Source of the DNA: a virus
Length of the DNA stretch: 30,455 nucleotides
Virus record (IMG/VR): IMGVR_UViG_3300005340_000065
Location: 1 to 30,455 of that record
Direction: 5' to 3' (one strand)
Position numbers and translations under genes: made by a program. Within the stretch, counting starts at the first letter, position 1. Each line of letters begins with the position of its first letter. A model generated the notes under the pieces. The model ran no database searches. It was not told where the DNA came from and was given only the letters and a program-made list of their open reading frames with translations. Below, one piece after another: positions 1,869-30,406 of this stretch.

Positions 1869-1871
1869 TAT

Positions 1872-1961: not shown

Positions 1962-1964
1962 TAT

Positions 1965-2500: not shown

Positions 2501-2522
2501 TATCTAGTCCTGAACGCCGCGA

Positions 2523-2744: not shown

Positions 2745-2765
2745 CGCGTTCTTAACCCGTGGTTC

Positions 2766-3920: not shown

Positions 3921-3922
3921 GT

Positions 3923-5941: not shown

Positions 5942-5950
5942 TTATCCCTC

Positions 5951-6058
5951 CTATTTGCAAATCATTCTCATCCAGCACATCGGTAGTCCCATCGTCAGAC
6001 CTCCGATCAAGAGCGTAGCCGCGAAGAAGAGAAGACCCATTGTCAGTTTGTTTGGCAT
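5951..6058 (-). CDS. 35-aa membrane miniprotein
   Basis: Start at ATG 6058 (MPNKLTMGLLFFAATLLIG), with AGAGG seven bases upstream and a TAATG overlap with the zinc-finger gene before it. Almost the whole product is one transmembrane helix ending CWMRMICK. The longer reading to 6163 is the wrong frame of the upstream zinc-finger gene. The role is unknown. Confidence 0.55.
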   Translation of the reverse strand: MPNKLTMGLLFFAATLLIGGLTMGLPMCWMRMICK

Positions 6059-6174
6059 TAGGGGCCTCTGAAGTAAAGATAGAGGAAGCGCCAGAAGCCG
6101 ACCTTCCCGAGTTTGCGGCACCAGTCGCAGCGACGAGCGAACGTTGAATTGCAGAACTGACATTTTTCAGTCAT
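6058..6174 (-). CDS. 38-aa CxxC zinc-finger miniprotein
   Basis: ATG at 6174 with AAGGA upstream opens a frame reading MTEKCQFCNSTFARRCDWCR and ending YLYFRGP. The two CxxC pairs are nine residues apart and fit a single zinc site. Its ATG overlaps the upstream stop (ATGA) and its TAA overlaps the next ATG (TAATG). It is therefore the true coding frame here, although a longer ORF in another frame hides it. Confidence 0.65.
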   Translation of the reverse strand: MTEKCQFCNSTFARRCDWCRKLGKVGFWRFLYLYFRGP

Positions 6175-6482
6175 GACTTGTCCTTTAGGGCGCGGATGGC
6201 CGAGGCAATCTCTAGACATTCCTGCCACAGTGCATTTTCTTGATTATTGTGTTGGTGGTCATAGCGTGCCGCTCTCGTTTCCGCCACCTGTGCGCAGCGT
6301 TCGATGGCGGCGTGAGCCATTAGAATGTAACGCTGCACTTGGGCCTCATGCCGTTCTTTATCCTTTACTACGTGACCGTCAATTATGTCTGCCCACTTGG
6401 CAAAGTCATTGTCATGCCCGTTGGCGATCTTCCTAAATGTGTCGCGCAAGGTTGCGAGTTCTTCTTGTGTTGGTGGTGTCAC
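6171..6482 (-). CDS. Hypothetical helical protein (103 aa), GTG start
   Basis: Start chosen at GTG 6482 (reading TPPTQEELATLRDTFRK), because it has a strong GGAGGG site and overlaps the upstream stop as GTGA. The ATG at 6533 has no such site. The protein is helical and soluble (HEAQVQRYILMAHAAIERCA, then LWQECLEIASAIRALKDKS). No family is recognised. Confidence 0.6.
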   Translation of the reverse strand: MTPPTQEELATLRDTFRKIANGHDNDFAKWADIIDGHVVKDKERHEAQVQRYILMAHAAIERCAQVAETRAARYDHQHNNQENALWQECLEIASAIRALKDKS

Positions 6483-6709
6483 AGATCCCTCCTGTATCCC
6501 GCTGCGTATCGTGCTGGATTGCTTAAAGCCCATAGCTTGTCTTTCAGTAGACCGTTTTCCTTTTCCAACTCGGCAATGCGAGCGCGGAGCGGTCCTTGCA
6601 TAACTCGCTCAATATACTCAAGTTGGAATTCGTTAAAATATAGTTGTGTCATGGGCGAATGATCGCGCTTATAATTCTCGATTAGCTTTTGTGTTTCTTT
6701 GGTTGTCAT
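6479..6709 (-). CDS. Coiled-coil hypothetical protein (76 aa)
   Basis: Reads MTTKETQKLIENYKRD and contains ARIAELEKENGLLKDKLWAL, a clear leucine-heptad coiled coil. The RIAELE string and its DNA recur three times in the neighbouring 199-aa protein. The start overlaps the stop of that protein as ATGA. Its role is unknown; oligomerisation with the neighbour through the shared heptads is possible. Confidence 0.6.
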   Translation of the reverse strand: MTTKETQKLIENYKRDHSPMTQLYFNEFQLEYIERVMQGPLRARIAELEKENGLLKDKLWALSNPARYAAGYRRDL

Positions 6710-7305
6710 GGGGCTAGCCTTTCACATAGTTTCTTCCATGCCTTCCACGTTGGCTCGTGCCGCTGCATCGCAAGCGACGGCCCATCTTTCATGCTGGTGG
6801 CTTTGCTGAATTCTGTTATCGCTGCCTCCAACTCGGCAATGAGGGCCTCTAGCTCAATGATGCGGTCCCGATACAGCGGACCCATCAGTGACCAGTCAGT
6901 TGCATCGTCATGTGTCGGTGTCATGGAGCTAGCCTCTCCGTTCCGATGTTTGCTCCATTCATGTTTCCGCGCGTCAGTCACGTGACCGTATCCATCGCAT
7001 TCGTCACAGCGTTTTTCCTCCCCGACATTTTCCGGCGCTCTATAAAATGGCAGGATTGACCCGTCTGACATAATGACGACAGAACCGGCTCCTTCGCATT
7101 TTTTGCACTCGGGCATCTGAGCCTCCAACTCGGCAATGCGCTTTTCTGCGGCGACGAGCTTGAACATTGTTTCTTCGCCCATGACCTGTAACTCGGCAAT
7201 GCGGGCGCGAACATCATTCGCCATTAGCTTGCATACTCCACAACCATCTGGGCACGCAGCGATGTGTTCTAGTTTTTCCATAGCTGTTAATGGTGTCAGT
7301 GCCAT
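6706..7305 (-). CDS. Mosaic protein: coiled coils flanking a zinc knuckle (199 aa)
   Basis: Start at MALTPLTAMEKLEH (7305), behind GGAGGT. An earlier in-frame codon runs into the upstream gene. Order of parts: CPDGCGVC near residue 20; coiled coil with RIAEL repeats at about 35 to 63; the MPECKKCEGAGS zinc module at about 64 to 110, nearly identical to the free-standing protein at 138-308; then a second helical part with RIIELEALIAELEAAI and a C-terminal KAWKKLCERLAP. It looks like a fusion of small modules that also exist alone in this genome. The function is unknown. Confidence 0.65.
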   Translation of the reverse strand: MALTPLTAMEKLEHIAACPDGCGVCKLMANDVRARIAELQVMGEETMFKLVAAEKRIAELEAQMPECKKCEGAGSVVIMSDGSILPFYRAPENVGEEKRCDECDGYGHVTDARKHEWSKHRNGEASSMTPTHDDATDWSLMGPLYRDRIIELEALIAELEAAITEFSKATSMKDGPSLAMQRHEPTWKAWKKLCERLAP

Positions 7306-7309
7306 TGGT

Positions 7310-7468
7310 CTAACCTCCGAGAAAGATTGCACCGGGTATCACCAGCAGCAGCCAAAATCCGTTGTCTGTGTAGAATGCCATGCCGAGACCGACCACGACG
7401 CAGATTGCGCAGGTGATCAGCAGCGGCGGAACCCACCATGCGTCTTCCTCTTTCGGTGTCATGGGCAT
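7310..7468 (-). CDS. Two-helix membrane protein (52 aa)
   Basis: Starts MPMTPKEEDAWWVPP (7468; 7462 is also possible), with AAAGG just upstream. Two hydrophobic stretches, LLITCAICVVVGLGMAF and FWLLLVIPGAIFLGG, flank a short polar turn. It overlaps the end of the probable lipoprotein gene upstream. No family is recognised. Confidence 0.6.
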   Translation of the reverse strand: MPMTPKEEDAWWVPPLLITCAICVVVGLGMAFYTDNGFWLLLVIPGAIFLGG

Positions 7469-7737
7469 TGCGCCTTTGTTCGCGCATAGTATCCGCCGCC
7501 GCAATTATATTTACCTTGCGCGACTGGACTAGCCCACGGGCATTGCGCCTTTGTCGGCGCATACCATCCTTCGCCACAGTCAAAACGATTTCGATCATCC
7601 CTCGGATTGCTGCTGCAACCGCTAAACATAAGGAAGAGAAAGACTATCACGGTCGCTGTAGAGACGACGGCGCAGAAGGCGACGAGGCCACCGCCACCAA
7701 TTTCCATAGGCTCGCTTGGTTGAGGGTCTGGTATCAT
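7459..7737 (-). CDS. Probable lipoprotein with Cys-repeat (92 aa)
   Basis: The N-terminus has a long hydrophobic segment ending FLFLMFSGCSSN, a reasonable lipobox with Cys41. The exported part holds two copies of one motif, CGEGWYAPTKAQCP and CGGGYYARTKAQCP, each with a Cys pair likely to form a disulfide. The DNA of the two units is also similar, so this is a recent tandem duplication. An envelope location is inferred. The function is unknown. Confidence 0.6.
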   Translation of the reverse strand: MIPDPQPSEPMEIGGGGLVAFCAVVSTATVIVFLFLMFSGCSSNPRDDRNRFDCGEGWYAPTKAQCPWASPVAQGKYNCGGGYYARTKAQCP

Positions 7738-7874
7738 GTTGCGTTCCTGTGACTGACTTCCTTGAGTATCTCCTTCAACAAGTCGCGAATTTCTTCTAGG
7801 AGTTCTTGATTGGTTTGTTTCTGATTTGCGCGCATGTACAAGTCGGATGGTCTGCTATCGCGTGTCTGTGTCAT
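7734..7874 (-). CDS. 46-aa coiled-coil miniprotein
   Basis: ATG 7874 overlaps the upstream stop as ATGA and is preceded by GAAGAAG. The product reads MTQTRDSRPSDLYMRANQ and ends in a heptad-rich helix, LLEEIRDLLKEILKEVSHR. Its TGA overlaps the start of the lipoprotein gene. A small oligomeric helix is likely; the role is unknown. Confidence 0.6.
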   Translation of the reverse strand: MTQTRDSRPSDLYMRANQKQTNQELLEEIRDLLKEILKEVSHRNAT

Positions 7875-8065
7875 ATCTTCTTCTTTCTAGCCGCCACAAC
7901 ATCTGGGTTTAACTTCGAGTTGTACTCGTCGTATCCGTAGTTATTGGACGCATCATACTTCTGGCTGTTGATGCGAGGGTCCTTGCCGGTTGCGAATGCA
8001 ATGCCAACTTCCTTGACAGTTTCTGCCCACGCTACTATGCCAACTTCCAACAATCGTAAGATCAT
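7871..8065 (-). CDS. Hypothetical protein (64 aa)
   Basis: Starts MILRLLEVGIVAWAETVK behind AGGAGG. The first 25 residues are moderately hydrophobic. The rest is polar and Asn/Tyr-rich (YDASNNYGYDEYNSK) and ends AARKKKI. It may be a small anchored protein, but no family is recognised. Confidence 0.55.
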   Translation of the reverse strand: MILRLLEVGIVAWAETVKEVGIAFATGKDPRINSQKYDASNNYGYDEYNSKLNPDVVAARKKKI

Positions 8066-8265
8066 GGCTTGTCCTCCTTCTTTATTAAAGCGAGCGCGTT
8101 CTGCGCTGCCTTGGTGATAATCTTAACGCTGTCGACGCAGACCGATGAAGCCTGCATGGTTATCTTACTTAGCTCTAGTTGTCTGTCTCCGGTTTCTCTT
8201 AACAGATGCGCCATGTAAAGCTGCATCAGCAAGAGACCGATGATCGTAAGACGTTCGGCGCTCAT
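8062..8265 (-). CDS. Hypothetical helical protein (67 aa)
   Basis: Start at MSAERLTIIGLLLMQLYM (8265), where GAGGA and an ATGA overlap support it. ATGs further upstream lie inside the preceding gene. It has an N-terminal hydrophobic helix, then an amphipathic helical region ending ALALIKKEDKP. It may be membrane-associated. Confidence 0.55.
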   Translation of the reverse strand: MSAERLTIIGLLLMQLYMAHLLRETGDRQLELSKITMQASSVCVDSVKIITKAAQNALALIKKEDKP

Positions 8266-8513
8266 GCTGCTGTCCTCGGACATTTGCACGGCCAGTAATG
8301 ACAGACGGGACAGTTAGCGGTGTTAAATTGATTTTTTATAGATGCAACCTTGTCTCTGACACCTTGGTCACGCTTCCAAGCCGCCTCACACAGGTCTGTG
8401 ACTGCGCGACCAAGCGGAGTGCAACCTGCTTTGCGCGCACCAATTGCACCCTCGATTGCAACGACCAAGTCCCAGAGCGCTTGGCCGGTGAATTCGGTGT
8501 CGGCCAATTTCAT
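8262..8513 (-). CDS. Hypothetical protein with C-terminal CxxC/CxC (83 aa)
   Basis: Start at MKLADTEFTGQALWDL (8513), with GGAG and an overlap with the upstream stop. The longer reading to 8636 lies over another real gene in a different frame. The body is helical (VVAIEGAIGARKAG, LCEAAWKRDQGVRDK). The end CPVCHYWPCKCP carries four Cys residues and a His, probably a zinc site. No family is recognised. Confidence 0.6.
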   Translation of the reverse strand: MKLADTEFTGQALWDLVVAIEGAIGARKAGCTPLGRAVTDLCEAAWKRDQGVRDKVASIKNQFNTANCPVCHYWPCKCPRTAA

Positions 8514-8665
8514 CGACCTATCTCCGTTCCGATCACTAGATATATGTCGAAGTCTCTCAGCTTGAGGTTGCCAGTCGCGTTCTCCATGACCCACGTCTTG
8601 GCCTCGTTGCTCGTCTTGAAAGGTCCATAGCACCACTCACTCTTAAGAGTCACTACCCACATCAT
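8510..8665 (-). CDS. 51-aa hypothetical protein
   Basis: ATG 8665 behind GGAGG opens a frame starting MMWVVTLKSEWCYGPFKTS and ending LVIGTEIGR. The pattern of strand, helix (NEAKTWVMENA) and strand is that of a small alpha/beta domain seen in many phage miniproteins. Both ends overlap neighbours by four bases. A longer ORF in another frame hides this one. Confidence 0.65.
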   Translation of the reverse strand: MMWVVTLKSEWCYGPFKTSNEAKTWVMENATGNLKLRDFDIYLVIGTEIGR

Positions 8666-8787
8666 GGCCTCCATCCCGGTTGGATCAGCATCCTAACAAT
8701 CGAGTAGACCGCGCTGGCGGCGCACATGGCAAGCACAGCATAAAATATATGATAGAGGTGAATGACCATGAACCTTTTCCATTTCAT
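8662..8787 (-). CDS. 41-aa membrane miniprotein
   Basis: Starts MKWKRFMVIHLYHIFYAV behind AGGAG and ends IQPGWRP. One transmembrane helix of about 20 residues follows a basic N-terminus, suggesting that the N-terminus stays in the cytoplasm. It overlaps the stop of the epimerase gene and the start of the next gene by four bases each. Confidence 0.65.
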   Translation of the reverse strand: MKWKRFMVIHLYHIFYAVLAMCAASAVYSIVRMLIQPGWRP

Positions 8788-9704
8788 CTCGGGTTCTCCT
8801 GATACCATTTCATAGTTCGCTGCAATCCTTCTCGCAGCGATACCTTCGGCAAGAAGCCTAGCTTTCTAATCTTCGTTATGTCCGGGCAGCGGCGAACGGT
8901 CCCGCCGTCAAACATGTGGGAGGACGAGTTAAATTGTAAGTTGTGATCGGACAGAAGCATAATTTTATGAGCTAGATAATCTATTCTTATTTCATCATCA
9001 TTGCCAAGGTTGTAGATATTTTTGTGTTCGCCTTTCTCTCGCAGCAGCATCAATCCATCGACAGCATCGTCGATATAACAGAAGGCTCGCGTCTCGTTTC
9101 CAGCATGGAAGTTATCTGAGTTGCGCATGAGCCGGGGAATGATGTGCTCCTCTCCGGCATCAGGTCCATAGATGTTATGTGGACGGACGATGATAAGATT
9201 GTCGAAGTGTTTGGCGTTGTGGATGGCTACCATCTCTGACGCGATCTTCTGCACTGCGTAAGAGTAGCGCGGATTGAAAGGATCAGGGACAGAGTAAGGC
9301 ACCGTCTCGTCGGTTGGTATCTTCGGCGGAGTTTGGTAGACCTCTGACGACGAGATGACCATGAGTTTTTTAACGCGATGGTCTATGCAGGAAGTAACTA
9401 CATTACATATGCCGCGCAGTCCAACGTCGAGGACTTCAGCAGGTTTTTCATAAAAGTTCTTTGTGCCGTTGACAGAGGCCATGTGGATAACCTCGTCCAT
9501 TCCAAGGACTACTGATCTAACCTCGTGGTCTACTCTGACGTCGCCTATCATGCGTCTGTCTAGAATGACGGCATCCTGCACTCTGCAATAATTTCCCCTC
9601 GACGCATTGTCTAGAACGAATACATCCTCACCAGCCGCAACTAGTCGCTTGACGAGCGCTGCTCCGATAAAGCCGCAACCACCTGTGACGAGGACCCTCG
9701 ACAT
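8784..9704 (-). CDS. NAD-dependent sugar epimerase/dehydratase (SDR family)
   Basis: At 306 aa this is an extended SDR. The Rossmann motif VLVTGGCGFIG starts at residue 4. The Ser of SSSEVY and the catalytic YSYAVQK (YxxxK) are present, as are IVRPHNIYGP and a C-terminal substrate domain. Relatives act on NDP-sugars (UDP-glucose 4-epimerase, dTDP-glucose 4,6-dehydratase, GDP-sugar enzymes); the exact reaction cannot be told from sequence alone. ATG 9704 follows AAGGAG and overlaps the upstream stop. It shares the operon with the sugar C-methyltransferase and the TylF-like enzyme, so all three may build one modified sugar. Confidence 0.88.
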   Translation of the reverse strand: MSRVLVTGGCGFIGAALVKRLVAAGEDVFVLDNASRGNYCRVQDAVILDRRMIGDVRVDHEVRSVVLGMDEVIHMASVNGTKNFYEKPAEVLDVGLRGICNVVTSCIDHRVKKLMVISSSEVYQTPPKIPTDETVPYSVPDPFNPRYSYAVQKIASEMVAIHNAKHFDNLIIVRPHNIYGPDAGEEHIIPRLMRNSDNFHAGNETRAFCYIDDAVDGLMLLREKGEHKNIYNLGNDDEIRIDYLAHKIMLLSDHNLQFNSSSHMFDGGTVRRCPDITKIRKLGFLPKVSLREGLQRTMKWYQENPR

Positions 9705-9940
9705 CACTCCTTCTCCTTGGTCAGTCTGTCGACAATCTGGTTGACCGTCTCGCGGACGCAGAAGCCGTGAATCTGCGTCTCGATATAAGCGTTGGCTACA
9801 TACGAGAACATGGTGGTGTTCTCACATCTTCCTTTAATGCCCGTCACTGAAATGATTTGCGAAGTTACTAGCCAGACTGGATCGCCGTTTGATCCGGTCA
9901 GCTGGATGAAGGTCAAGGTTGCGATAAGGAGATTTTTCAT
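9704..9940 (-). CDS. Secreted hypothetical protein (78 aa)
   Basis: A signal peptide is likely: MKNLLIATLTFIQLTGS. The mature part has short strands (PVWLVTSQIISVTGIKG) and two Cys residues (GRCENT and GFCVRE) that could form a disulfide, then a C-terminal helix IVDRLTKEKE. An AAAGG site precedes the ATG. A periplasmic location is inferred. No family is recognised. Confidence 0.6.
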   Translation of the reverse strand: MKNLLIATLTFIQLTGSNGDPVWLVTSQIISVTGIKGRCENTTMFSYVANAYIETQIHGFCVRETVNQIVDRLTKEKE

Positions 9941-10116
9941 TTGCCTTTACTCTTGAAGAAGTCTGCCAATATTTTTTCAAATGCTTTGCTGCAATCAAAA
10001 CACAAGTCGTATTTCCCAGCATCAGGCCAAAAGGATGAATGTGGGAATATTGCCCATCCTGACCACTTCTTAGTAAGTTCTTTTCCACAGGCGTCGCAGA
10101 AGTTCTTCGTGCTCAT
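9937..10116 (-). CDS. Zinc-finger hypothetical protein (59 aa)
   Basis: Start at MSTKNFCDACGKELTKKW (10116), with a strong GGAGGAG site. The longer reading to 10221 is antiparallel to no real gene but lies in the wrong frame of the upstream gene. CDAC and CFDC pairs about 30 residues apart suggest a treble-clef or ribbon-type zinc site. The C-terminus is a basic helix (FEKILADFFKSKGK). Confidence 0.65.
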   Translation of the reverse strand: MSTKNFCDACGKELTKKWSGWAIFPHSSFWPDAGKYDLCFDCSKAFEKILADFFKSKGK

Positions 10117-10394
10117 TTTATCTCCTCCTCGATGCGCATGGCGTCGATGTACGTCGTGCCGTCGACTATCATCGTGTGGACATGAATGGTGCCTGTGGTC
10201 TTGAACCATCCTCCGTCGCACTGCTCCCAGCAGCCAGAGGCTAACTCTATTCCGTCATAGACTGCGGACTGTTTTTGTTGTTGTTGTTGTTGTTTACGTC
10301 CTTCGTCTAGCCAGACAGAAATGAAGAGAAGTCCGAGTAGAATAAATGCGCAAACAAGACCGAGAGTGACCCACATTAAATTTGGCATGCCCAT
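10113..10394 (-). CDS. Membrane protein with poly-Gln linker (93 aa)
   Basis: Residues 5 to 28 form a transmembrane helix (LMWVTLGLVCAFILLGLLF). A charged turn and a run of six Gln follow, encoded by CAA repeats, and then a domain of short strands with two Cys residues (SGCWEQCDGG, IHVHTMIVDGTTYID). GGGAG precedes the ATG. The poly-Gln run probably acts as a flexible linker. Repeat-length changes here would stay in frame. The function is unknown. Confidence 0.6.
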   Translation of the reverse strand: MGMPNLMWVTLGLVCAFILLGLLFISVWLDEGRKQQQQQQKQSAVYDGIELASGCWEQCDGGWFKTTGTIHVHTMIVDGTTYIDAMRIEEEIK

Positions 10395-10618
10395 TATTCT
10401 CTCCCAAGTATCTTTATGTGACTGTCGCCGTATTTGCCGAGAAACCTTATCTGAATTTGATGTTGCTCCAGACCGTATTCATTTATTCGCATGTGCTCGT
10501 TCGCGCAGTTCCAGCAGCAGAACACGCGGCGACGTTCGGGGAATTGCGGCGATAGCATCTCCGTGTGCATCGGTCCGCTCGACGCGTCCGCTCGTCCGCA
10601 GTGGTAGCACGTGGTCAT
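10394..10618 (-). CDS. Zinc-binding hypothetical protein (74 aa)
   Basis: Reads MTTCYHCGRADASSG and then VFCCWNCANEHMR, giving CxxC and CxxC pairs about 30 residues apart, as in MYM- or FCS-like treble-clef fingers. The C-terminal part is beta-rich (QIQIRFLGKYGD). It joins its neighbours by a TAATG and an ATGA overlap. The partner is unknown. Confidence 0.65.
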   Translation of the reverse strand: MTTCYHCGRADASSGPMHTEMLSPQFPERRRVFCCWNCANEHMRINEYGLEQHQIQIRFLGKYGDSHIKILGRE

Positions 10619-10986
10619 GTCTTCTTCTCGGTTGTGAGCTGAAGTCCGAACAGCTCTATGCTTTTGAAATCTCCTTCGACGCGAAGGTCATCGAGAAATG
10701 TATGTTTATAATCCGGATCGACCTTAGCCCAGTAGCTAATCCAAGCTTCATCATTCCCTTTAACTTCTGGAAGGATCGACGCCTGAATCGTGCTTTGGTT
10801 ATCATCGTCGATACAGTCGATGATAATTTTCTTAATCTTTCCGCCTGCGACGTGAATTTGATAATTATGCCAGAGGTTATCTAACGCAACAGTCTTCTCA
10901 GCGACGCTCTCCGCTACCGCAGCAGGAACGCTCGCTGCGACGAGCGCGGCGGTTAAGCCTTTGATGAAGTCGCGACGAGAGGTCAT
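10615..10986 (-). CDS. Protein with twin-arginine (Tat) signal (123 aa)
   Basis: Start at MTSRRDFIKGLTAALVAAS (10986), behind AGGAA. The SRRDFIKG motif, an Ala-rich hydrophobic core and a PAAVAES cleavage region form a textbook Tat signal, so the protein should be exported folded. The mature part (about 95 aa) is acidic and beta-rich: YQIHVAGGKIKKIIIDCIDDD, then EAWISYWAKVDPD. No cofactor motif is recognised. The longer reading to 11121 is the wrong frame over the gene at 10983-11147. Confidence 0.7.
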   Translation of the reverse strand: MTSRRDFIKGLTAALVAASVPAAVAESVAEKTVALDNLWHNYQIHVAGGKIKKIIIDCIDDDNQSTIQASILPEVKGNDEAWISYWAKVDPDYKHTFLDDLRVEGDFKSIELFGLQLTTEKKT

Positions 10987-11147
10987 GCGTTCGTTCCTAT
11001 CGCGATAAGTGATCCGCCGACCATTCCTAAACCTGTAGAAAATATCGGCGTGATATCGGACGGGAGAAACCAAGCTAGCGCCATGCCAGCGGTAATGACG
11101 AGAGCACCGCCGAATATCCAAACGAACCTATCTGCTGAGTCCATCAT
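10983..11147 (-). CDS. Two-helix membrane miniprotein (54 aa)
   Basis: Opens MMDSADRFVWIFGGALV and ends SLIAIGTNA. Two hydrophobic segments, one at about residues 9 to 28 and one at about 36 to 52, are joined by a short polar turn with Pro. The AGAGGA site, the ATGA overlap with the preceding gene and the overlap with the Tat-protein start support this frame over the longer ORF in another frame. Confidence 0.65.
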   Translation of the reverse strand: MMDSADRFVWIFGGALVITAGMALAWFLPSDITPIFSTGLGMVGGSLIAIGTNA

Positions 11148-11323
11148 TGCGTCCTCTCTCCTTCGAACCTGGTGATGCGCAATTCCGGGTTGAACCTTAT
11201 CTCAGGCTTGCCATCCTTCTTTCGAAAATAAATTCTCATCTCGCGCCACTCTTCGTCAGTCGCGCCAAGTGCCAGCTCTTTCATCTTCTCTAGGTTTAGA
11301 ACCTCTTCAGGCTTTTTGATCAT
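11144..11323 (-). CDS. Hypothetical protein (59 aa)
   Basis: ATG 11323 behind AGGTGA starts MIKKPEEVLNLEKMKELAL. A helical N-terminus is followed by strands (EMRIYFRKKDGKPEIRFN) and a basic tail ending FEGERTQ. It fills the gap between two genes and overlaps the next by four bases. No family is recognised. Confidence 0.65.
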   Translation of the reverse strand: MIKKPEEVLNLEKMKELALGATDEEWREMRIYFRKKDGKPEIRFNPELRITRFEGERTQ

Positions 11324-11330
11324 GGATCAC

Positions 11331-11543
11331 CTATGGTCGATGTGGACAATTAAATGAAGCGCACTTCCAGTTTGGTATTGAGTAAATCCTGTCCCCACAA
11401 AATTCGCAAACACCCAAGGCTTCAAACTTGGTAGGTGGCAATACTGCTAGACCGTAAACCTTGGCTCTTTCTTTAGCTTCACGCTTTCTACGCTCTATGC
11501 CCTCACGTTCCGTTCTCTCGTATTGTTCGTCATAGTGTCCCAT
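11331..11543 (-). CDS. Zinc-ribbon protein, possibly DksA/TraR-like (70 aa)
   Basis: A charged N-terminal helix (YERTEREGIERRKREAKER) precedes CEFCGDRI and a further CASFNC pair. Small phage TraR/DksA proteins have such a helix followed by CxxCGxxI and a second CxxC. Here the second pair is CxxxxC and DksA tip residues are not clear, so the assignment is weak. The start may be ATG 11543 or the GTG at 11552 that overlaps the upstream stop. Confidence 0.55.
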   Translation of the reverse strand: MGHYDEQYERTEREGIERRKREAKERAKVYGLAVLPPTKFEALGVCEFCGDRIYSIPNWKCASFNCPHRP

Positions 11544-11548
11544 GTCGT

Positions 11549-11848
11549 TCACCAGCTATTTCGAAAGATGATTGACACGACGCTCTCTGGAAGCTTGGCA
11601 ATTTCGACGACGTAATCAAGAGAGCCGTCGCCTTCTCTCTCTTGCACGATTTCACTTAAGTCAACTTCCAGAGCCTGCTCAGCGATGTATTCCGGATTAT
11701 CATAGCCGTTGCAGTGCTCGCCAAAATAGTCGCTGACTTCTTTCGGTGGTTCTATGCCTGCTTGTTGGCAAGATTTAAGGACAGCAAAATATTTTTTGAA
11801 TGCATCGTCTCTGGCCCGTTGGCCGATGACACTAGTGCTCATACTCAT
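11549..11848 (-). CDS. Hypothetical protein (99 aa)
   Basis: Starts MSMSTSVIGQRARDDAFK behind GGAGGG. It is helical and acidic (YFAVLKSCQQAGIEPPKE, YIAEQALEVDLSEIVQE), and the C-terminus is hydrophobic, ending SIIFRNSW. It was not recognised, though soluble and likely a compact helical fold. Confidence 0.6.
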   Translation of the reverse strand: MSMSTSVIGQRARDDAFKKYFAVLKSCQQAGIEPPKEVSDYFGEHCNGYDNPEYIAEQALEVDLSEIVQEREGDGSLDYVVEIAKLPESVVSIIFRNSW

Positions 11849-11866
11849 GTCGCCCTCCTTCGCCTC

Positions 11867-12526
11867 TTACGGCTTGATCATCATGACCCCAGTCTGGTCG
11901 ATAGGCTTTAGCAGAGTGTTGTATGCTATTCCCTTCTTGTTAAAGTATTCCTGACACGCTTCACGACTTCCGCGCCAGTGGCCGTAGTCATCGACGATGA
12001 GAACTCCTCCCTTAACCAATCTCGGATAGAGGACCTGCAATTCAATCTTCGTCGATTCATACCAGTCGGTGTCGAGACGGAGCAGAGCGATCTTTTCCGG
12101 AACATTATTTTTTAAAGTCTCTTCAACTTTACCCTGAACCATGATGCACTTTGTCACGTCCCAAACTCCTTCAGCGCGAAGATTGCCTTGAACTTCTTCG
12201 ACCGAAGCCGCAGCCCACTTATGTCCGTTTGCGGTTTTGGCGCGCCATGTTTCTATTGCTCGTCGTCCCTTGTCGTGGACTTTCACGTCGCGGTCCGTTG
12301 GCTCTGGCATACCGTCGAAGGTGTCGAACAGCCAGCAAACACGTGATGGACATATCCATCTGGCAAGAATGATATGGCCACCCTGCCACACCCCGCACTC
12401 GACGATGTCTCCCGGAAGTTGGCACTCGTCTATCCTCCTGCAAGCGTCGATCATGGCCTGAAGTCGTTTCCGGCTGGCTTTCGAATAGTGGCCGTACACC
12501 CGGTCGATCATTTCGCTGTCATTCAT
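11867..12526 (-). CDS. TylF/MycF-like O-methyltransferase
   Basis: At 219 aa it matches the macrocin O-methyltransferase family. GDIVECGVWQGG is the SAM-binding start, then LFDTFDGMPEPTD with the metal-binding region, RLDTDWYESTKIEL, and GGVLIVDDYGHWRGSREA. TylF and MycF are metal- and SAM-dependent enzymes that methylate sugar hydroxyls; many homologues occur in surface-polysaccharide clusters. No good ribosome site precedes the ATG. Together with the sugar C-methyltransferase and the epimerase it suggests a methylated deoxysugar, but the acceptor is not visible here. Confidence 0.88.
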   Translation of the reverse strand: MNDSEMIDRVYGHYSKASRKRLQAMIDACRRIDECQLPGDIVECGVWQGGHIILARWICPSRVCWLFDTFDGMPEPTDRDVKVHDKGRRAIETWRAKTANGHKWAAASVEEVQGNLRAEGVWDVTKCIMVQGKVEETLKNNVPEKIALLRLDTDWYESTKIELQVLYPRLVKGGVLIVDDYGHWRGSREACQEYFNKKGIAYNTLLKPIDQTGVMMIKP

Positions 12527-12528
12527 TT

Positions 12529-12822
12529 TTATGGGCGCGCTGGTTTGTTAGCCGGACCAGCGGGAACTGACGACGTCGGTTGCTCGTTCTTAAACTTGTA
12601 AATGGCCGGAACTTCCATGACCCGCTTGTTACTCAGCTTGGTTAGGCGAGATGAGTCGAACCAGTGGCCGTTCTCGATCTTGCCGTCCTTATCCAGCTTT
12701 TGGCTGCGAATGCAGTACTGAACGCAGCCGTAGAGGTCGAAGCATACGCTGTCGCAGACGCCCTCGTAGTTAGTGATGACGTCCCTGTATCGGTGGCCGA
12801 GAACTTCCAGATGCTTTTCCAT
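12529..12822 (-). CDS. Conserved phage-type protein (97 aa)
   Basis: The pattern MEKHLEVLGHRYRDVITNYEG, then SVCFDLYGCVQYCI, DKDGK and GHWFDSSRL is that of a small beta-barrel protein which I recall from many phage genomes as a hypothetical. In such proteins a GxxVxDxxTxxxG strand opens the barrel. The last 20 residues are Pro/Ala-rich and probably disordered. GGAG precedes the ATG. The role is unknown. Confidence 0.6.
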   Translation of the reverse strand: MEKHLEVLGHRYRDVITNYEGVCDSVCFDLYGCVQYCIRSQKLDKDGKIENGHWFDSSRLTKLSNKRVMEVPAIYKFKNEQPTSSVPAGPANKPARP

Positions 12823-12849
12823 TTTGTCGCTCCGTTGTTTAAAAACCTA

Positions 12850-13167
12850 TTACCCGTATCTAGCTGCCCGTTCAGGATGCATTAAACGAAGTCTAGTAAG
12901 CAATTCATCTTCACCAACGCTGCATTCGTAAGGCGTAAAATTTATCTTTTTATCCGTGTCTTTATCTGGTGGTATCCCTGCGCTATGAACGTTTGCCGAT
13001 CGCACGCGCTTTTTTAAAGCAACACCTAATTTGCTTGCACGATTTTGAATAGTAGGCCACATTCTTTTTATTAATCGTTCTAAGCCTCTTACAGAAATAA
13101 CAAGCTCGCCCGACGCGTAACGTCTTATTATATCATCTTCCAGCTCAGTAAATTCCCTTATTGCCAT
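12850..13167 (-). CDS. Small helix-turn-helix (SANT/Myb-like) protein (105 aa)
   Basis: Residues 1 to 50 (AIREFTELEDDIIRRYASGE, then TIQNRASKLGVALKKR) resemble the bacterial SANT/Myb-like HTH: an acidic first helix and a final recognition helix with xxxNRASKLGV. The rest is polar and ends LMHPERAARYG. It overlaps the end of the gcrA-like gene by 10 bases, so the two regulators should be made together. DNA binding is inferred. Confidence 0.6.
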   Translation of the reverse strand: MAIREFTELEDDIIRRYASGELVISVRGLERLIKRMWPTIQNRASKLGVALKKRVRSANVHSAGIPPDKDTDKKINFTPYECSVGEDELLTRLRLMHPERAARYG

Positions 13168-13607
13168 TGGTCGGGTTTCCTACGCGAAACATCATAGTGA
13201 GTGTAGCAGTACGGTGTGCCTTCCAAGATTTTTCGACCGCAAAAATAAATATCTGTTTCACCAAAAGGCCAACGGCAATGGTTGTGTTCCAACTCAACCA
13301 GTGTTTTGCCATCATTACGAGACACGTCAATATTTTCAAGCGGCAATTGTTTGTAGTTAACAGACTGAATTTTAATTTTTCGGTTAAGCATCAATTGCTT
13401 TTTAGGTCTTTCTTTGCGTTCGCCATTAAGATGTGCCACTCTTCTTCCGCCACTGCTGTTTGTCATTGGCACATGCATTCGATGCAATTTTCCAATAATA
13501 GCGTTACGGCTTTTTGTTTCTATTACGGCTGACATTTCAGTTGCACTCAGACCATCCTTGTTAAGTGTTAACAACAATGATACTTCGTCTTCTGTCCAGT
13601 TCATCAT
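13158..13607 (-). CDS. gcrA: GcrA-family cell-cycle regulator
   Basis: The N-terminal helix-turn-helix reads MNWTEDEVSLLLTLNKDGLS and then SRNAIIGKLHRM, the GcrA signature. The C-terminal domain has HCRWPFGETDIYFCG and GTPYCYTHY, the conserved sigma-70-contact region with its Cys/His pattern. GcrA is an alphaproteobacterial factor that binds RNA polymerase sigma-70 and DNA methylated by CcrM at GANTC. At 149 aa it has usual family length but a longer basic linker. A GGGGAAG site precedes ATG 13607 (or 13604). A phage copy could redirect host cell-cycle promoters or regulate phage promoters carrying GANTC. Confidence 0.9.
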   Translation of the reverse strand: MMNWTEDEVSLLLTLNKDGLSATEMSAVIETKSRNAIIGKLHRMHVPMTNSSGGRRVAHLNGERKERPKKQLMLNRKIKIQSVNYKQLPLENIDVSRNDGKTLVELEHNHCRWPFGETDIYFCGRKILEGTPYCYTHYDVSRRKPDQWQ

Positions 13608-13635
13608 GTTACTTCCCCTATTTAATTTTTAAAGT

Positions 13636-13678
13636 GTCGACCCATTGTATTGCAGGAATTTTAGAACAATGGGCCGAC
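13636..13678. promoter_or_regulatory. Inverted repeat upstream of gcrA
   Basis: Arms at 13636-13648 and 13666-13678 match in 12 of 13 positions (GTCGACCCATTGT and its near complement), with a 17-nt loop. The repeat lies 29 bases upstream of the gcrA-like start and 44 bases downstream of the GIY-YIG stop. It has no proper U-tract in either direction, so an operator or leader hairpin is as likely as a terminator. The whole spacer 13608-13721 holds no convincing gene. Confidence 0.6.
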
Positions 13679-13721
13679 GTTTCTTTCTCAGAACGGATTT
13701 AGTCGATGGGTGCTGCACCTC

Positions 13722-14087
13722 CTATGGTGGTGACCTTTCTGCAGGACAGGTGGTTCCAGAAGGGTCAATGTCGCGAACCGGCGACTCCTGCAATTTCATG
13801 TTTTTTACGAATGGGATTGGTCTTGAGTTTACTTTACAAATTGGGCAGTAACGTGTAGCACCACCATAAGTCTTAAGATATTTTTCAAATTCTTTTGGTG
13901 TCTCTGGCCAAACGTGAGCGAGCTCTACCCTGCTGCCATTTAATATAGCGTACTTTGGTAACACACCGCCTGTGCCATTTTGATGACGACGGACTCGTTC
14001 TTTTAATTGTCTTTCGTCCCGCGCATAGCCGATATAATGTCGGCTATGTCTTAATGGTGGTTCTAGGTGTAGAAGATAAACAGCCAC
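13722..14087 (-). CDS. GIY-YIG-like nuclease domain protein (121 aa)
   Basis: The N-terminus AVYLLHLEPPLRHSRHYIGYA matches a known GIY-YIG variant (VYLLHF, then HYIGxT), followed by RQLKERVRRHQNGTG with the conserved Arg and His, then LAHVWPETPKEFEKYLK with the catalytic-type Glu. A CPIC motif and a polar tail follow. It starts at GTG 14087 with AGGAG upstream. Relatives are small predicted endonucleases in phages and actinobacteria. Its role may be DNA processing or homing; there is no intron or broken gene nearby. Confidence 0.7.
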   Translation of the reverse strand: MAVYLLHLEPPLRHSRHYIGYARDERQLKERVRRHQNGTGGVLPKYAILNGSRVELAHVWPETPKEFEKYLKTYGGATRYCPICKVNSRPIPFVKNMKLQESPVRDIDPSGTTCPAERSPP

Positions 14088-14091
14088 TGCC

Positions 14092-14331
14092 TTACGCTCC
14101 TGCGAACCGTTCTAAATTTTTATTTCTTTTTCGCATGTCATTAAGGAAGCGCATCGAGGCCATTGCTTTTACTGCCTCGAAATTTGGTTCGATTACTGAA
14201 GCAGGCCAGCGCGCACAAACTAGCGTCGTGGCGATGCGGATATCGTCCGCGTAAAGTGGGTTGACATTTTTGTTGTATAACGTTCTTGCCATCATGACGA
14301 TATCTTCGTTTTGTATTTTATTGTTCAGCAT
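14092..14331 (-). CDS. Hypothetical protein (79 aa)
   Basis: Reads MLNNKIQNEDIVMMARTLYN and ends NKNLERFAGA. It is mostly helical; the segment DDIRIATTLVCARW is followed by VKAMASMRFLNDMRKR, a basic helix. It overlaps the 3' end of the next upstream gene by 14 bases. No family is recognised. Confidence 0.6.
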   Translation of the reverse strand: MLNNKIQNEDIVMMARTLYNKNVNPLYADDIRIATTLVCARWPASVIEPNFEAVKAMASMRFLNDMRKRNKNLERFAGA

Positions 14332-14794
14332 GATTTTTCCCCTTTTGAAAATTGTTGCGTATGATTAAGAACGCATCGAGTTTTTTACTTCCCAGCATTG
14401 AATCATCAAATGGAGGCAATTTTAGGGCCTGTCTTAATTTGATAATTTGTTTGTCAATTAATTGTAAAACGAGCAAACGAATTTCTGGAGGAGCTTCGAG
14501 CCAAGGACCCGCATTTACAAAAGCAATTAATTTATTTTCCTGAGTAAGTTTGTAACGTTCTAAAAAAGCAATAAGCTTCTTCACTTCATTTTCATACTTG
14601 CCTGCCAACAATTCGTCAAAGGTTTCCTTACGCCAACGCTTCCAAAGTTTCCATAAAAGGTCTCGTTCGATTAACGCTTTCTGAACAGCCTTTTCCTGCG
14701 CGCGATGTTTAAAGCGCTTCTCATTCGCTTGCATGCGGCGTTTAACCGGTGCAGCAATCGCTTTGTCCGCGTAAGCTAAGAATGGATTAGTCAT
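14318..14794 (-). CDS. Basic helical hypothetical protein (158 aa)
   Basis: Starts MTNPFLAYADKAIAAPVK and is rich in Lys and Arg throughout. KRRMQANEKRFKHRAQEK looks like a charged helix, and two similar segments, KKLIAFLERYKLTQ and NKLIAFVNAGPWLE, may be a weak internal repeat. The high positive charge suits binding of DNA or RNA. It overlaps the RuvC stop by four bases (ATGA), suggesting coupling with recombination functions. No family is recognised. Confidence 0.6.
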   Translation of the reverse strand: MTNPFLAYADKAIAAPVKRRMQANEKRFKHRAQEKAVQKALIERDLLWKLWKRWRKETFDELLAGKYENEVKKLIAFLERYKLTQENKLIAFVNAGPWLEAPPEIRLLVLQLIDKQIIKLRQALKLPPFDDSMLGSKKLDAFLIIRNNFQKGKNHAEQ

Positions 14795-15225
14795 TTAATT
14801 TTTTCCAAATTAGCCATCGCGTAGTGCAGCAGCCCGACTGCGTCAGCCTCGTGCTCATTTTTAACAGGAAAGCCTTTCTTCTTAGCAGCCTTAATCATGT
14901 CTTCTTTTGAAGCCCGTCCATTGCCCGTGACAAACTTCTTAACCGTAGGCACTGCAATATTAAGAACGGGTAAGCTTTTCTCAGTAACGATCGCTTCCAG
15001 GATACCCGCGATGCCCCAAAGAGAACGGGTAGCGTCTTGTCCACGACCTAAAGGCGTTTCATAAATTACTACGCTGTAGGGTTCCCAATAGAGTTCAGTT
15101 AACCAGCGTTTAATTTGACAAAATCGTTCAACTCGCACTCCTTTAAATATTTTATGCCCACAGGAGTTGTTGTGGTTAGTTGCGAAACCCATCGTCGCAC
15201 CTAAATCGAAAGCAATGATTTTCAT
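14791..15225 (-). CDS. ruvC: RuvC-like Holliday-junction resolvase
   Basis: At 144 aa, with start at MKIIAFDLGATMGFA (15225), it overlaps the upstream stop as ATGA. The RNase H-like fold of RuvC is clear: the first acidic residue lies in FDLG, the Glu in VVIYETPLG, and the last acidic pair in NEHEADAVGLL. KKFVTGNGRASKEDM matches the DNA-contact segment of RuvC. Such phage resolvases cut four-way junctions made during replication and packaging. The gene sits in the left arm, apart from the replication genes in the right arm. Confidence 0.88.
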   Translation of the reverse strand: MKIIAFDLGATMGFATNHNNSCGHKIFKGVRVERFCQIKRWLTELYWEPYSVVIYETPLGRGQDATRSLWGIAGILEAIVTEKSLPVLNIAVPTVKKFVTGNGRASKEDMIKAAKKKGFPVKNEHEADAVGLLHYAMANLEKIK

Positions 15226-16334: not shown

Positions 16335-16375
16335 CAAATTACCAAACGTCCGGGCTTTTAAACCCGGACAATAAC
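16335..16375 (-). repeat. Covarying intercistronic hairpin, copy 1
   Basis: Stem GTCCGGG (16348-16354) with CCCGGAC (16363-16369) and an 8-nt loop. It is flanked on the plus strand by CCAAACG before and AATAA after, as in copies 2 to 4. It lies directly downstream of the stop of the gene at 16376-16582. The rest of the spacer 16265-16334 has an AT/GC mix with a weak TATAGT on the minus strand and no gene. Confidence 0.75.
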
Positions 16376-16774: not shown

Positions 16775-16813
16775 TAAATTTCCAAACGTCTGGCCTTTCG
16801 ACCAGACAAGAAG
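16775..16813 (-). repeat. Covarying intercistronic hairpin, copy 2
   Basis: Stem GTCTGG (16788-16793) with CCAGAC (16802-16807) and an 8-nt loop. The plus-strand left flank TTTCCAAACG equals that of copy 3; the right side is AAGAAGTT in place of AATAAAGTT. It lies in the spacer 16759-16876 between two leftward genes. Nothing else is recognised there. Confidence 0.7.
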
Positions 16814-17130: not shown

Positions 17131-17170
17131 AAAATTTCCAAACGCCCGGTCTTCTTCAACCGGGCAATAA
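17131..17170 (-). repeat. Covarying intercistronic hairpin, copy 3
   Basis: Stem GCCCGGT (17144-17150) with ACCGGGC (17159-17165), an 8-nt loop, and conserved flanks TTTCCAAAC and AATAAAGTTAG. It lies immediately downstream of the stop of the DUF932 gene and upstream of the next start. Confidence 0.8.
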
Positions 17171-18897: not shown

Positions 18898-19698
18898 ATG
18901 CAAGTAGAGCCTTTCTTCGCGTTTGCACGCGAACGACACAAAATATATCTGGCACGCAAAGCAGGAAAACCTGCACCTTGGACTGCCGATTCAATCTTAC
19001 AAAAATATCGCTTTACGAATGTTTTTCGTGAACTGGATGCAACCACAATCTGGTTTCGGCAAAATCTTCGCGACCCGTTAAAAAACTTAATTGAAGTCCT
19101 TCCGGCTACCGTCGTCTTCCGCTGGTTCAACCGGATAACGACCGGTGAAGTAATAATGCGAAACCGAAATTATCTTAACCCGAAAAAATTACGATTGGCG
19201 ATTGAAAAAATTCCGCCGCCATACGTAACCGGTGCGTACATGATTTATACAACTTGTCTCGGCGCGCCAAACAAGCAGGAAGGCGTGCTGCAGGCAATTG
19301 AAATCTGGTATAACACCCATAAGGATTGGCGTAAATTTAAATTTGATAAATTACAGACGGCAGCGGAATGGATGAGTTCAACTTGTCTTGGCGGTTTTAT
19401 GACCTACGAGATTGTAAGCGACCTGCGGCATACTTCTCTCTTACGCAACGCGACCGACATAAACACTTGGGCACATTTTGGACCCGGCGGTCAGCGCGGA
19501 CTCGAGCGGGTCGCTGGTAAAGGTGCCGATTTAAAAGCAGCACAAGAGTTACTAGCTATGTCACGTAACAGTAAGTTCTGGCCCGCGCAATGGCCCGCTT
19601 GGGAAATGCGAGAAGTCGAGCACACCTGCTGCGAATATCTGAAATATACGAAAGTACAAAACGGCGAAGGCCACCCGAAAGGATTGTTCAAATGCTAA
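18898..19698 (+). CDS. Thymine-hypermodification enzyme (aGPT-PPlase / HMUDK helical superfamily)
   Basis: The 266-aa all-helical protein carries the family signatures: YRFTNVFRELDATTIWFR at residues 37 to 54, AYMIYTTCLGAP, SSTCLGGFMTYEI, HFGPGGQRGLERV and the final EVEHTCCEYLKYTKVQNGEG. This superfamily holds alpha-glutamyl/putrescinylthymine pyrophosphorylases and the helical domain of 5-hmdU DNA kinases. No Walker A loop is present, so it is closer to the stand-alone pyrophosphorylase type, which acts on 5-hydroxymethyl-dU pyrophosphate in DNA. It is the first gene of the rightward arm. Its presence suggests that this phage replaces part of its thymine with a modified base. Confidence 0.82.
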   Translation: MQVEPFFAFARERHKIYLARKAGKPAPWTADSILQKYRFTNVFRELDATTIWFRQNLRDPLKNLIEVLPATVVFRWFNRITTGEVIMRNRNYLNPKKLRLAIEKIPPPYVTGAYMIYTTCLGAPNKQEGVLQAIEIWYNTHKDWRKFKFDKLQTAAEWMSSTCLGGFMTYEIVSDLRHTSLLRNATDINTWAHFGPGGQRGLERVAGKGADLKAAQELLAMSRNSKFWPAQWPAWEMREVEHTCCEYLKYTKVQNGEGHPKGLFKC

Positions 19699-20402
19699 AG
19701 CAGGGGCGATTTGGTAAGGATAAGATCAAGGCTTGGTATCGACCGGGCACGACCGACGAAAATGCTCTTATTGAAGTACTGGATAAACGTGCCTACCGCA
19801 GAGCTTCCGCTAAGTTTGATGTCGAAGCTGGGGAACATTGGCTCGATCTTGGTGCCAACATAGGGGCGTTCGCCTTATACTGTAAATCCAAAGGGGCAAA
19901 AGTAATTAGTATTGAACCGATGCAAGATTGCTTCGATATATTAATTAAAAATACAGAACCTAAGCGGTGCCTCCAAACGGCCGTAACTAATATCGATGCA
20001 CCTTTTATTCAATTTTGGACTGCAAAAAACTCAACTGATCACTATCGCGGCACAATATTGCCACGTAGAGCTGCAAATGCGCCGATTATGGTAAAAAATA
20101 TTTACGGAGAGTATCTTTTTCCAGGTGAAAAATTTGACGGTATAAAAATGGATATTGAAGGTGCAGAATTTGGTTTAATTGATGATTGGCTATTACCAAA
20201 ATCAAATAAACTAGTATTCGAATATCATCTGAGTCGTGACAATTCCCTGCAAAATTTAGCGAAACGTTTTCGTATTCTGCGCAAGCATTATAAGAACGTT
20301 GTCGCTTGTCCAGAACTAATGCGTCTTGTCAAAAAGGGCACCGGCACCGGACGGACTTACTTCGATCGATGTGTTTATTGTTGGGGGTTAAAAAATGCCT
20401 AG
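19692..20402 (+). CDS. FkbM-family methyltransferase
   Basis: Start at MLKQGRFGKDKIKAWYRP (19692), behind AAGGA and overlapping the upstream stop by seven bases. The longer reading to 19590 lies inside the previous gene. The 236-aa protein has the FkbM pattern: WLDLGANIGAFALYCKSKG for SAM binding, VISIEPMQDCFDIL, and DGIKMDIEGAEFGLIDD. FkbM enzymes are O-methyltransferases of sugars or small molecules. Placed between the hypermodification gene and the thymidylate synthase homologue, it may methylate the base adduct. This is inference. Confidence 0.85.
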   Translation: MLKQGRFGKDKIKAWYRPGTTDENALIEVLDKRAYRRASAKFDVEAGEHWLDLGANIGAFALYCKSKGAKVISIEPMQDCFDILIKNTEPKRCLQTAVTNIDAPFIQFWTAKNSTDHYRGTILPRRAANAPIMVKNIYGEYLFPGEKFDGIKMDIEGAEFGLIDDWLLPKSNKLVFEYHLSRDNSLQNLAKRFRILRKHYKNVVACPELMRLVKKGTGTGRTYFDRCVYCWGLKNA

Positions 20403-21370: not shown

Positions 21371-21547
21371 ATGAAACGCATCTACCGTGGCTTCGCAATC
21401 GAGTACCCGCCAAGTATGAAGCAGTTCTTCGTTTGTGAAACGAACGGTAAAGTCCTCGCTACAACAAACTCCTATAACGAAGCTTGCTCTTGGATCGATT
21501 TTGAAATCCGCCGTCAACGACTGGAAGTTTTCCCGGAGGATAAATAA
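21371..21547 (+). CDS. 58-aa hypothetical protein
   Basis: A frame between two genes starts MKRIYRGFAIEYPPSMKQF and ends RLEVFPEDK, with AAAGGA before the ATG. It has a strand-strand-helix outline (FFVCETNGKVLATTNSYNEA, CSWIDFEIRRQ) common to small phage proteins. Its TAA shares one base with the ATG of the thymidylate synthase homologue (TAATG), which suggests translational coupling. Confidence 0.65.
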   Translation: MKRIYRGFAIEYPPSMKQFFVCETNGKVLATTNSYNEACSWIDFEIRRQRLEVFPEDK

Positions 21548-29549: not shown

Positions 29550-30035
29550 ATGCCTTACTGGGCAGTTATTCGGACAAAGGCGAATTCTGAAAAACGTGCA
29601 TGCGAGAATCTGAAAAGACAGAATTTTAATTTTTATTTCCCGCGATTTAAAAAATTAGTTGGATCGCGAGAATTTATTTGTGCGTTGTTTCCAAGGTACA
29701 TGTTTTTATTTGTTGTTGATCAATGGCGATCGGTTATGTCGACGTTTGGTGTTGAAAAGGTTTTGTTGCGGACTGATGGAGAACCTTACAGGATTTCTGA
29801 AGAGGTTATTTCTTCTTTGCGGAAAAGAGAAGAAAACGGGTTGATTAAATTGCCTGAGCAACAAGTCGGTCGGTTTAAGAAGGGTCAAGAGTTGGTAGTG
29901 ACAGGTGGTATCTTCTTCGGGGAGAAGGTGATCTACCAAAGCTCTACTTCTCAAGATAGAGAATTAGTGTTGTTGTCTATGTTAGGTAGACTAACTACGT
30001 TTAAGATTGAAAGTAGTAATCTTTCTCCTGTTTGA
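29550..30035 (+). CDS. RfaH/NusG-like transcription antiterminator
   Basis: At 161 aa it is almost the length of E. coli RfaH (162). The NGN domain (about 1 to 95) reads YWAVIRTKANSEKRACENLK, then NFYFPRFKKLVGSRE and ALFPRYMFLFV, a good match to NusG/RfaH. The C-terminal domain (about 108 to 161) has GRFKKGQELVVTGGIFFGEK, the KOW strand pattern. RfaH binds RNA polymerase paused at ops, blocks pausing and Rho action, and recruits ribosomes. An ops-like site lies 39 bases after the stop. GCGAGG precedes ATG 29550. A NusG-type regulator of phage late genes is inferred. Confidence 0.88.
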   Translation: MPYWAVIRTKANSEKRACENLKRQNFNFYFPRFKKLVGSREFICALFPRYMFLFVVDQWRSVMSTFGVEKVLLRTDGEPYRISEEVISSLRKREENGLIKLPEQQVGRFKKGQELVVTGGIFFGEKVIYQSSTSQDRELVLLSMLGRLTTFKIESSNLSPV

Positions 30036-30073: not shown

Positions 30074-30085
30074 GGCGGTAGCATG
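30074..30085 (+). promoter_or_regulatory. ops-like element (RfaH recruitment site)
   Basis: GGCGGTAGCATG matches the E. coli ops core GGCGGTAGCGTG at 11 of 12 positions. The only change is at position 10. The pause-consensus bases (G2, T11, G12) are kept. It directly follows the RfaH-like gene and an AT-rich spacer, and its last three bases are the HNH start codon, so GGCGG may also act as the ribosome site. Function is inferred from the pairing with the RfaH-like gene. Confidence 0.7.
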
Positions 30086-30406
30086 ACTACTTCTTGGAAA
30101 TGGCTGTACAAAACTGGTACTTGGTCAGCGCTAAGAGCATCACAGCTTAGGCAGCAACCACTGTGCGAAACTTGTTTAGCTAGCAACAGAATTGTAGCGG
30201 CTATAGTAGCACATCATATTGTTCCACACAAAGGTGACAAGAACAAGTTTTATAATGGTAAACTAAAGTCGCTTTGTAAAAAGTGTCATGACTCTATTGA
30301 GCAGAGCTACGAGAAGCTAGGTTACTATAAGGAGATAGGAAAAGATGGATGGCCTATCGATATTACCCACCCTGTGTACCTACCTGTAGTTTCCAGAAAA
30401 AAATAA
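30083..30406 (+). CDS. HNH endonuclease (107 aa)
   Basis: The HNH motif is complete: LCETC (C28, C31), AHHIVPHKGD (H44, H45), an Asn in FYNGKL and SLCKKCHD (C65, C68, H69). The two CxxC pairs bind a structural zinc and the His residues a catalytic metal. Small HNH proteins of this type often lie just upstream of the terminase genes and help the terminase in cos cutting. The next start, at 30439, may be that operon. The DNA around is more AT-rich than the replication genes. Confidence 0.85.
   Translation: MTTSWKWLYKTGTWSALRASQLRQQPLCETCLASNRIVAAIVAHHIVPHKGDKNKFYNGKLKSLCKKCHDSIEQSYEKLGYYKEIGKDGWPIDITHPVYLPVVSRKK

Follow-up and report, generated by a model that had tools for sequence, protein, structure and literature searches.

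The locus described here raises two linked questions: whether a GcrA-type protein encoded by a phage steers RNA polymerase at promoters of the phage or of its host, and whether it does so together with the product of the gene that overlaps its own. GcrA is described in a review as riding on the sigma-70 holoenzyme and recruiting it to methylated promoters (PMC7403470). GcrA is encoded by several phage groups, and in the portions of the literature available here its role at phage versus host promoters is only guessed. A conserved partner found only in phages would offer a handle on whether phages copied the host cell-cycle switch or rebuilt it, the rebuilt alternative being a two-part polymerase-steering device.

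Records and loci compared

The whole stretch of DNA analysed, here called the window, is an entire IMG/VR record, a viral one 30,455 bases long. The same phage is represented there once more, by record G001, as window positions 1711-15000 match it at 99% (first 15,000 bases compared), and it continues about 8.6 kb past the left end of the window. The search for close relatives of the window's polymerase gene returned two records only, each identical in that gene. The distant relatives are IMG/VR records G007, G008 and G009, which correspond to gcrA loci L024, L025 and L026; L024 and L025 are near-copies across much of their length, leaving two lineages besides the window's (L024/L025 and L026). 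G009 is a 25-kb record, and the virus records searched may be fragments.

The alignment query returned 69 GcrA loci from IMG/VR, one of them G001 itself, and a Caulobacter GcrA query returned 34 GenBank phage records. Removal of L023, which is the window's own phage, left 68 viral loci, and the counts from these retain the near-duplicates L024/L025, L035/L036 and L068/L069. The bacterial comparison comprises the 80 best matches, which are not a random sample. Features of the window are collected in Table 1.

Table 1. Positions in the window of gcrA, its partner and associated features
Feature	Position	Strand	Basis or remark
gcrA, GcrA-family sigma-70 cofactor, 149 aa	13158..13607	-	Pfam GcrA, PDB 7ye1 and NCBIfam scores
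N-terminal DNA-binding domain of GcrA, residues 2-46	13470..13604	-	5yiu match; conservation table
Linker of GcrA, residues 47-110	13278..13469	-	length ordinary
Sigma-interacting domain of GcrA, residues 100-142	13182..13310	-	5yix match; conserved core
Partner, 105 aa, overlapping gcrA by 10 bases	12850..13167	-	homologs right behind gcrA in L024, L025 and L026
First 50 residues of the partner, DNA-binding-like domain of three helices (predicted)	13018..13167	-	pLDDT 78-91 (blocks of ten)
Conserved peptide in the C-terminal part of the partner (residues 79-97), PY...D.LL.RL...H	12877..12933	-	comparison of homologs
Inverted repeat in the gcrA leader, 13-bp stem, 17-nt loop; hairpin or operator	13636..13678	-	
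Winged-helix-like protein, 94 aa	15222..15506	-	weak Trans_reg_C match; lies upstream of gcrA both in the window and in its distant relatives
RfaH/NusG-like antitermination protein	29550..30035	+	
HNH endonuclease	30083..30406	+	adjoins the RfaH-like gene here and in G007/G008

A divergent GcrA with a retained core

The open reading frame that the preliminary description assigned to GcrA lies at exactly the given position, and the clear family signature claimed for both domains is confirmed. Against the Pfam GcrA model (PF07750) the protein scores 97 bits (E 1.9e-27, residues 2-144, cut-off 26.9), a match that spans both domains, and it matches full-length, two-domain Caulobacter GcrA in the PDB (7ye1, E 5e-13), and each domain also matches by itself, 5yiu covering the DNA-binding part (E 2e-6) and 5yix the sigma-interacting part (E 9e-4); domain limits follow the review cited above (PMC7403470). 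Five matches of 161-208 bits were obtained with the same Pfam model on four bacterial genomes. The window protein reaches 64 bits against the NCBIfam GcrA equivalog model (NF050816), below its cut-off of 280, and at the sequence level it is a divergent family member rather than a host-type orthologue. The quick GcrA tree groups it with seven viral rows (support 83, unstarred). As a side observation, the Pfam GcrA model also scores above its cut-off in the control genome of Sulfolobus acidocaldarius, an archaeon.

Conservation was assessed in an alignment of 80 bacterial and 67 of the 68 viral proteins, in which the bacterial sequences show at least 80% uniformity in 60 columns. Of these, the window protein retains 31 (52%; viral median 60%) and differs in 29. 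Retained positions include W4, the recognition block R34, N35, A36, G39, K40, H42 and R43, and the core of the sigma domain, namely C111, W113, P114, G116, F122, C123, G124, Y133, C134 and H137; lost are W16 (replaced by N) and the proline of the GDP loop. The loop after WPFG(E/D) (GDP loop) is shorter in the window protein and its nearest relatives than in bacterial GcrA. Loss of sigma-70-binding residues had been named beforehand as an observation that would count against a GcrA role; at the level of conserved residues, which is what the alignment addresses, such a loss is not seen. Judging from the residues kept, the protein would most likely bind region 2 of sigma-70 and most likely read methylated GANTC.

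The linker between the domains had been called longer and more basic than usual, a view that the measurements do not bear out. From residue 47 to the first Cys (Cys111 in the window), a measure obtained for 65 of the 68 viral and 77 of the 80 bacterial loci, it spans 64 residues in the window and 71 in Caulobacter GcrA, with medians of 67 among viral (n=65) and 60 among bacterial proteins (n=77). Its length falls in the middle of the range (43rd percentile among viral and 60th among bacterial GcrA), and its share of K+R, 0.20, is the same as the viral median and high only in relation to bacterial GcrA (90th percentile). The linker is ordinary for a phage GcrA.

The overlapping partner gene

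As previously noted, gcrA overlaps a small neighbouring gene, with which it shares 10 bases. Although the product of this gene had been termed SANT/Myb-like, sequence libraries lend the term no support: no Pfam, PHROG or NCBIfam model, including Myb/SANT and other HTH models, matched above its cut-off, the sequence found nothing significant in the PDB, and named phages contained no match at E 1. AlphaFold prediction from a single sequence was poor and matched nothing; prediction with three sequences improved residues 1-50 only, giving three helices there with good confidence and leaving the remainder mostly unordered. Structural comparison of residues 1-49 returned, with Z values of 4.5-5.3 that the tool rates as common, chains from homeodomain, transposase and Myb-like proteins, and Foldseek with the predicted structure returned none at E ≤0.001. 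The model therefore supports a generic, DNA-binding-like three-helix fold for the N-terminal half of the partner, without family assignment. Kinship between the partner and the DNA-binding domain of GcrA was considered and set aside: BLASTP found none, and the profile comparison was weak (E 0.09 and 0.14; probability <1%), which does not establish a shared ancestry for them.

The suggestion that the overlapping genes act together gains support from distant phages. A phmmer search with the partner against the open reading frames of GcrA loci (68 viral, 80 bacterial and 10 from named phages) found exactly three relatives, in L024, L025 and L026 (E 6e-7 to 8e-7), each lying immediately after gcrA and sharing 4 bases with it (mechanical ORF calls). 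These records are also the three closest viral GcrA records, with identities to the window of 34-35% for the partner and 36-38% for GcrA. A profile built from three sequences recovered the partner in all four of G001, G007, G008 and G009 as a positive control, and had no hit in 32 other virus records with GcrA or in 385 genomes from the class of a Hyphomicrobium genome (an alphaproteobacterial class). When genes lying right behind viral gcrA were clustered (an ORF was present for 42 of 67), only the proteins of L024, L025 and L026 joined the partner. Between G007 and G008, the partner has five synonymous and no amino-acid changes, and gcrA has four synonymous and eight amino-acid changes. Other candidates were rejected: the match in L004 is a chance one, its frame being antisense to a longer ORF, and in phages JY13 (Microcystis) and JY42 (Synechococcus) the proteins following gcrA have no likeness to the partner visible by eye.

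The open reading frames common to the window and G007, G008 or G009 (E 1e-4) are those of gcrA, the partner and the winged-helix-like, RfaH-like and HNH proteins, besides one short antisense-type match in G007 only, whereas the window's polymerase, primase and exonuclease have no match in these three records at this threshold. The genes in common, as far as their sequences tell, are thus mostly regulators. Because relatives of the partner lie right behind gcrA in otherwise largely unrelated viruses (three records, two lineages), the two proteins probably act together, and they may interact physically. No mention of the gcrA-partner pairing was found in the accessible portions of the open-access literature on phage GcrA, in which an unnamed partner is not directly searchable by name; this steady pairing is the new part of the findings and does not appear to have been described before.

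GANTC sites and methylation

The preliminary description proposed that GcrA might tie phage promoters to the host cell cycle through GANTC, and that these sites be counted and mapped near such promoters. The count is 30 in the window against about 122 expected, which makes GANTC the rarest of the 16 split palindromes there, at 0.24 of the first-order expectation. The corresponding ratio is 0.29 in the 68 viral GcrA loci and 0.37 in the 80 bacterial loci, and it ranges from 0.33 to 0.96 in eight control phages (15-kb slices, not randomly chosen), none of which is as low as the window. Such scarcity is typical of GcrA phages and Alphaproteobacteria. It was rejected as proof of a CcrM-bearing host, given that Pseudomonas (0.42) and Pseudanabaena (0.41) phages among the controls are also low.

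Alphaproteobacterial genomes are reported to be poor in GANTC overall, with an excess in intergenic DNA (PMC3973325, seen in part). This pattern recurs in the bacterial loci, where 110 of 663 sites are non-coding (79.6 expected, p 0.0003), whereas in the 68 viral GcrA loci 61 of 424 are (57.0 expected, p 0.30). The window together with the remainder of G001 has 8 of 47 sites in non-coding DNA (5.2 expected, p 0.14), a slight and non-significant excess, and under another gene model the window has 3 of 30 (2.5 expected). A published scan of alphaproteobacterial phages likewise saw no positional bias of GcrA sites, according to the part of that report available here (PMC9437464). Clear clustering of phage sites in non-coding DNA did not emerge from the mapping, and a link between GANTC and phage promoters is not supported, since the window is depleted and viral non-coding DNA is not enriched while the bacterial control is. 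An N6-adenine methyltransferase of the PF01555 type was found in none of five virus records (G000, G001, G007, G008 and G009, possibly fragments), with a positive Caulobacter control; methylation would accordingly come from the host.

Other features of the window

The inverted repeat in the gcrA leader has a folding energy of -21.3 kcal/mol (z -5.15); weaker copies of one of its arms, near chance level, lie near 5983, 6031 and 12826. The RfaH-like gene was not found in the 25-kb record G009, and RfaH as a constant companion of GcrA was rejected: PF02357 occurs in only seven of 49 records searched, comprising three of four with gcrA and partner, four of 32 other IMG/VR GcrA records, none of five named GcrA phages (one nevertheless annotated with an RfaH factor) and none of eight control phages. 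The phage RNA polymerase model PF00940 gave no match in five records, and its controls were silent too, so that absence is not shown.

Candidate pyrimidine-modification genes lie at 18898-19698 and 21547-22509. The window contains a match to the helical domain of 5-hydroxymethyl-dU DNA kinase (PF18723, E 1.5e-39; absent from G007, G008 and G009) and a homolog of thymidylate synthase that finds its best PDB match in CMP 5-hydroxymethylase, and from these matches the phage may carry hypermodified pyrimidines. Three hairpins on the minus strand (16336-16357, 16776-16797 and 17132-17153) occupy three successive intergenic gaps; their stems differ yet remain self-complementary, and they are followed by a common sequence, GTTTGG(A/T)AATTT. 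The set recurs in G001 and was not seen in the scanned stretches of G007 or G009; it could represent an RNA element or an operator present in several copies. At 29353-29451, separating the primase gene from that of the RfaH-like protein, is an inverted repeat with 41-nt arms (80% complementary). Several genes of sugar or small-molecule type, found at 11867-12526, 8784-9707, 4398-5579 and 19590-20402, encode methyltransferases resembling TylF and FkbM, a C-methyltransferase and an NAD-dependent epimerase.

Host promoters or phage promoters

The best explanation as a whole, to which a probability of roughly 0.4 is assigned, is that phage GcrA and its partner steer host polymerase mainly at CcrM-methylated host promoters. 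The two overlapping genes would yield a GcrA-type sigma-70 cofactor made together with a small helix-turn-helix-like protein. The C-terminal domain of GcrA would most likely dock onto region 2 of the host housekeeping sigma factor, and its N-terminal domain would most likely still read methylated GANTC, acting mainly at host promoters methylated by host CcrM, on the assumption of a host with CcrM and GcrA. The partner would most likely add a second DNA contact or adjust the GcrA step, the RfaH-like factor would act later, on elongating polymerase, and the replication-phase programme of the host would be held on through infection. A protein that keeps its recognition block while the genome encoding it has shed GANTC fits one aimed mainly at host promoters, and scarce sites in the window with no enrichment in viral non-coding DNA favour host targets. 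The same lack of clear concentration in non-coding phage DNA argues against GANTC-coded phage promoters and mildly for host promoters. Against this explanation stand the remoteness of the protein from its bacterial counterparts (64 bits where the equivalog model requires 280, 29 of 60 conserved columns changed) and the slight, non-significant non-coding excess in the window; possible modified pyrimidines could also alter how CcrM or GcrA sees phage DNA.

The strongest alternative, itself rather doubtful, is that GcrA and the partner recognise phage promoters and redirect host RNA polymerase to phage genes, with the partner supplying or changing DNA recognition and GANTC methylation unnecessary. 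Such a role would suit a partner found only with the window's GcrA subgroup, a set of genes common to distant phages that consists mostly of regulators (gcrA, partner, winged helix and RfaH-like), and the unconcentrated GANTC, which fits a non-GANTC site; however, no common phage promoter motif was found, and the GANTC-type recognition block is intact. Joint function might also be absent altogether, gcrA and the partner being inherited merely as neighbours, as could happen in phages that have a few other genes in common and when only two lineages besides the window's are available. This is unlikely, because the region's other open reading frames, bar the winged helix, have no match in G007 or G009 (E 1e-4; one antisense-type exception in G007), and gcrA and the partner stay joined despite these unmatched surroundings. 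That phage GcrA instead occupies host sigma-70, blocks host GcrA and shuts off host cell-cycle genes would accord with a sigma-domain core kept while the remainder diverges and with the shorter sigma-domain loop of the window's subgroup, but it is quite improbable, as the DNA-binding recognition block, needless for a pure competitor, is kept.

A bolder proposal, and a long shot, is that the two proteins make up a new type of sigma cofactor, in which GcrA would grip host sigma-70 and the partner would serve as a phage-specific, CcrM-independent DNA address. If true, the pair would join the winged-helix protein and the factor resembling RfaH in a portable set with which a phage takes over host RNA polymerase at both initiation and elongation, on phage DNA that may be hypermodified.

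Comparison with known GcrA systems

GcrA of Caulobacter crescentus (7ye1, 5yiu, 5yix) resembles the window protein in domain order, recognition block, the Cys/Trp/His core of the sigma domain and linker length. In contrast, the window protein is phage-borne and 149 aa long, about half of its strongly conserved columns are changed, its sigma-domain loop is shorter, and its gene is coupled to that of a partner.

Among phages, a GcrA was already published in 2012 as gp222 of phiCbK, a precedent that the preliminary description missed, and, in the available part of that report, was proposed to alter the replicative state of the host (PMC3556154), a proposal of the same kind as the preferred, host-directed explanation given here. 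Both proteins are phage-encoded members of PF07750, whereas phiCbK is a 215-kb phage, gp222 is only 24% identical to the window GcrA, and annotation of the gene following it points to a DNA polymerase palm fragment rather than a partner. Phage GcrA is also mentioned, in sources seen in part, for a coral-associated phage and for Sinorhizobium prophages. Cyanophage Pam5 gp57, annotated as GcrA-like (PMC9382816), and ORF4 and ORF5 of brucellaphage Y17, two successive GcrA-like proteins (PMC11836647), are likened to the window protein by annotation only. Separately, a protein of Phaeobacter phage MD18 (L018 2001-2375) has a host-like GcrA DNA-binding domain without the sigma-interacting domain, and one small protein, whose GcrA-like DNA-binding domain is weak, occurs near gcrA both in L028, a virus contig (3410-3781), and in L171 (2054-2425), a contig of 3.5 kb that is listed as a Nitrospiraceae genome and is probably phage DNA that was binned with it.

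The nearest parallels are G007, G008 and G009, which have a partner homolog overlapping gcrA and a winged helix upstream, with RfaH-like and HNH genes also present in G007/G008, and which differ from the window in their replication genes and gene neighbours. A phage-borne gcrA is a known kind of gene; its conserved, phage-only partner lifts the present finding a little above that.
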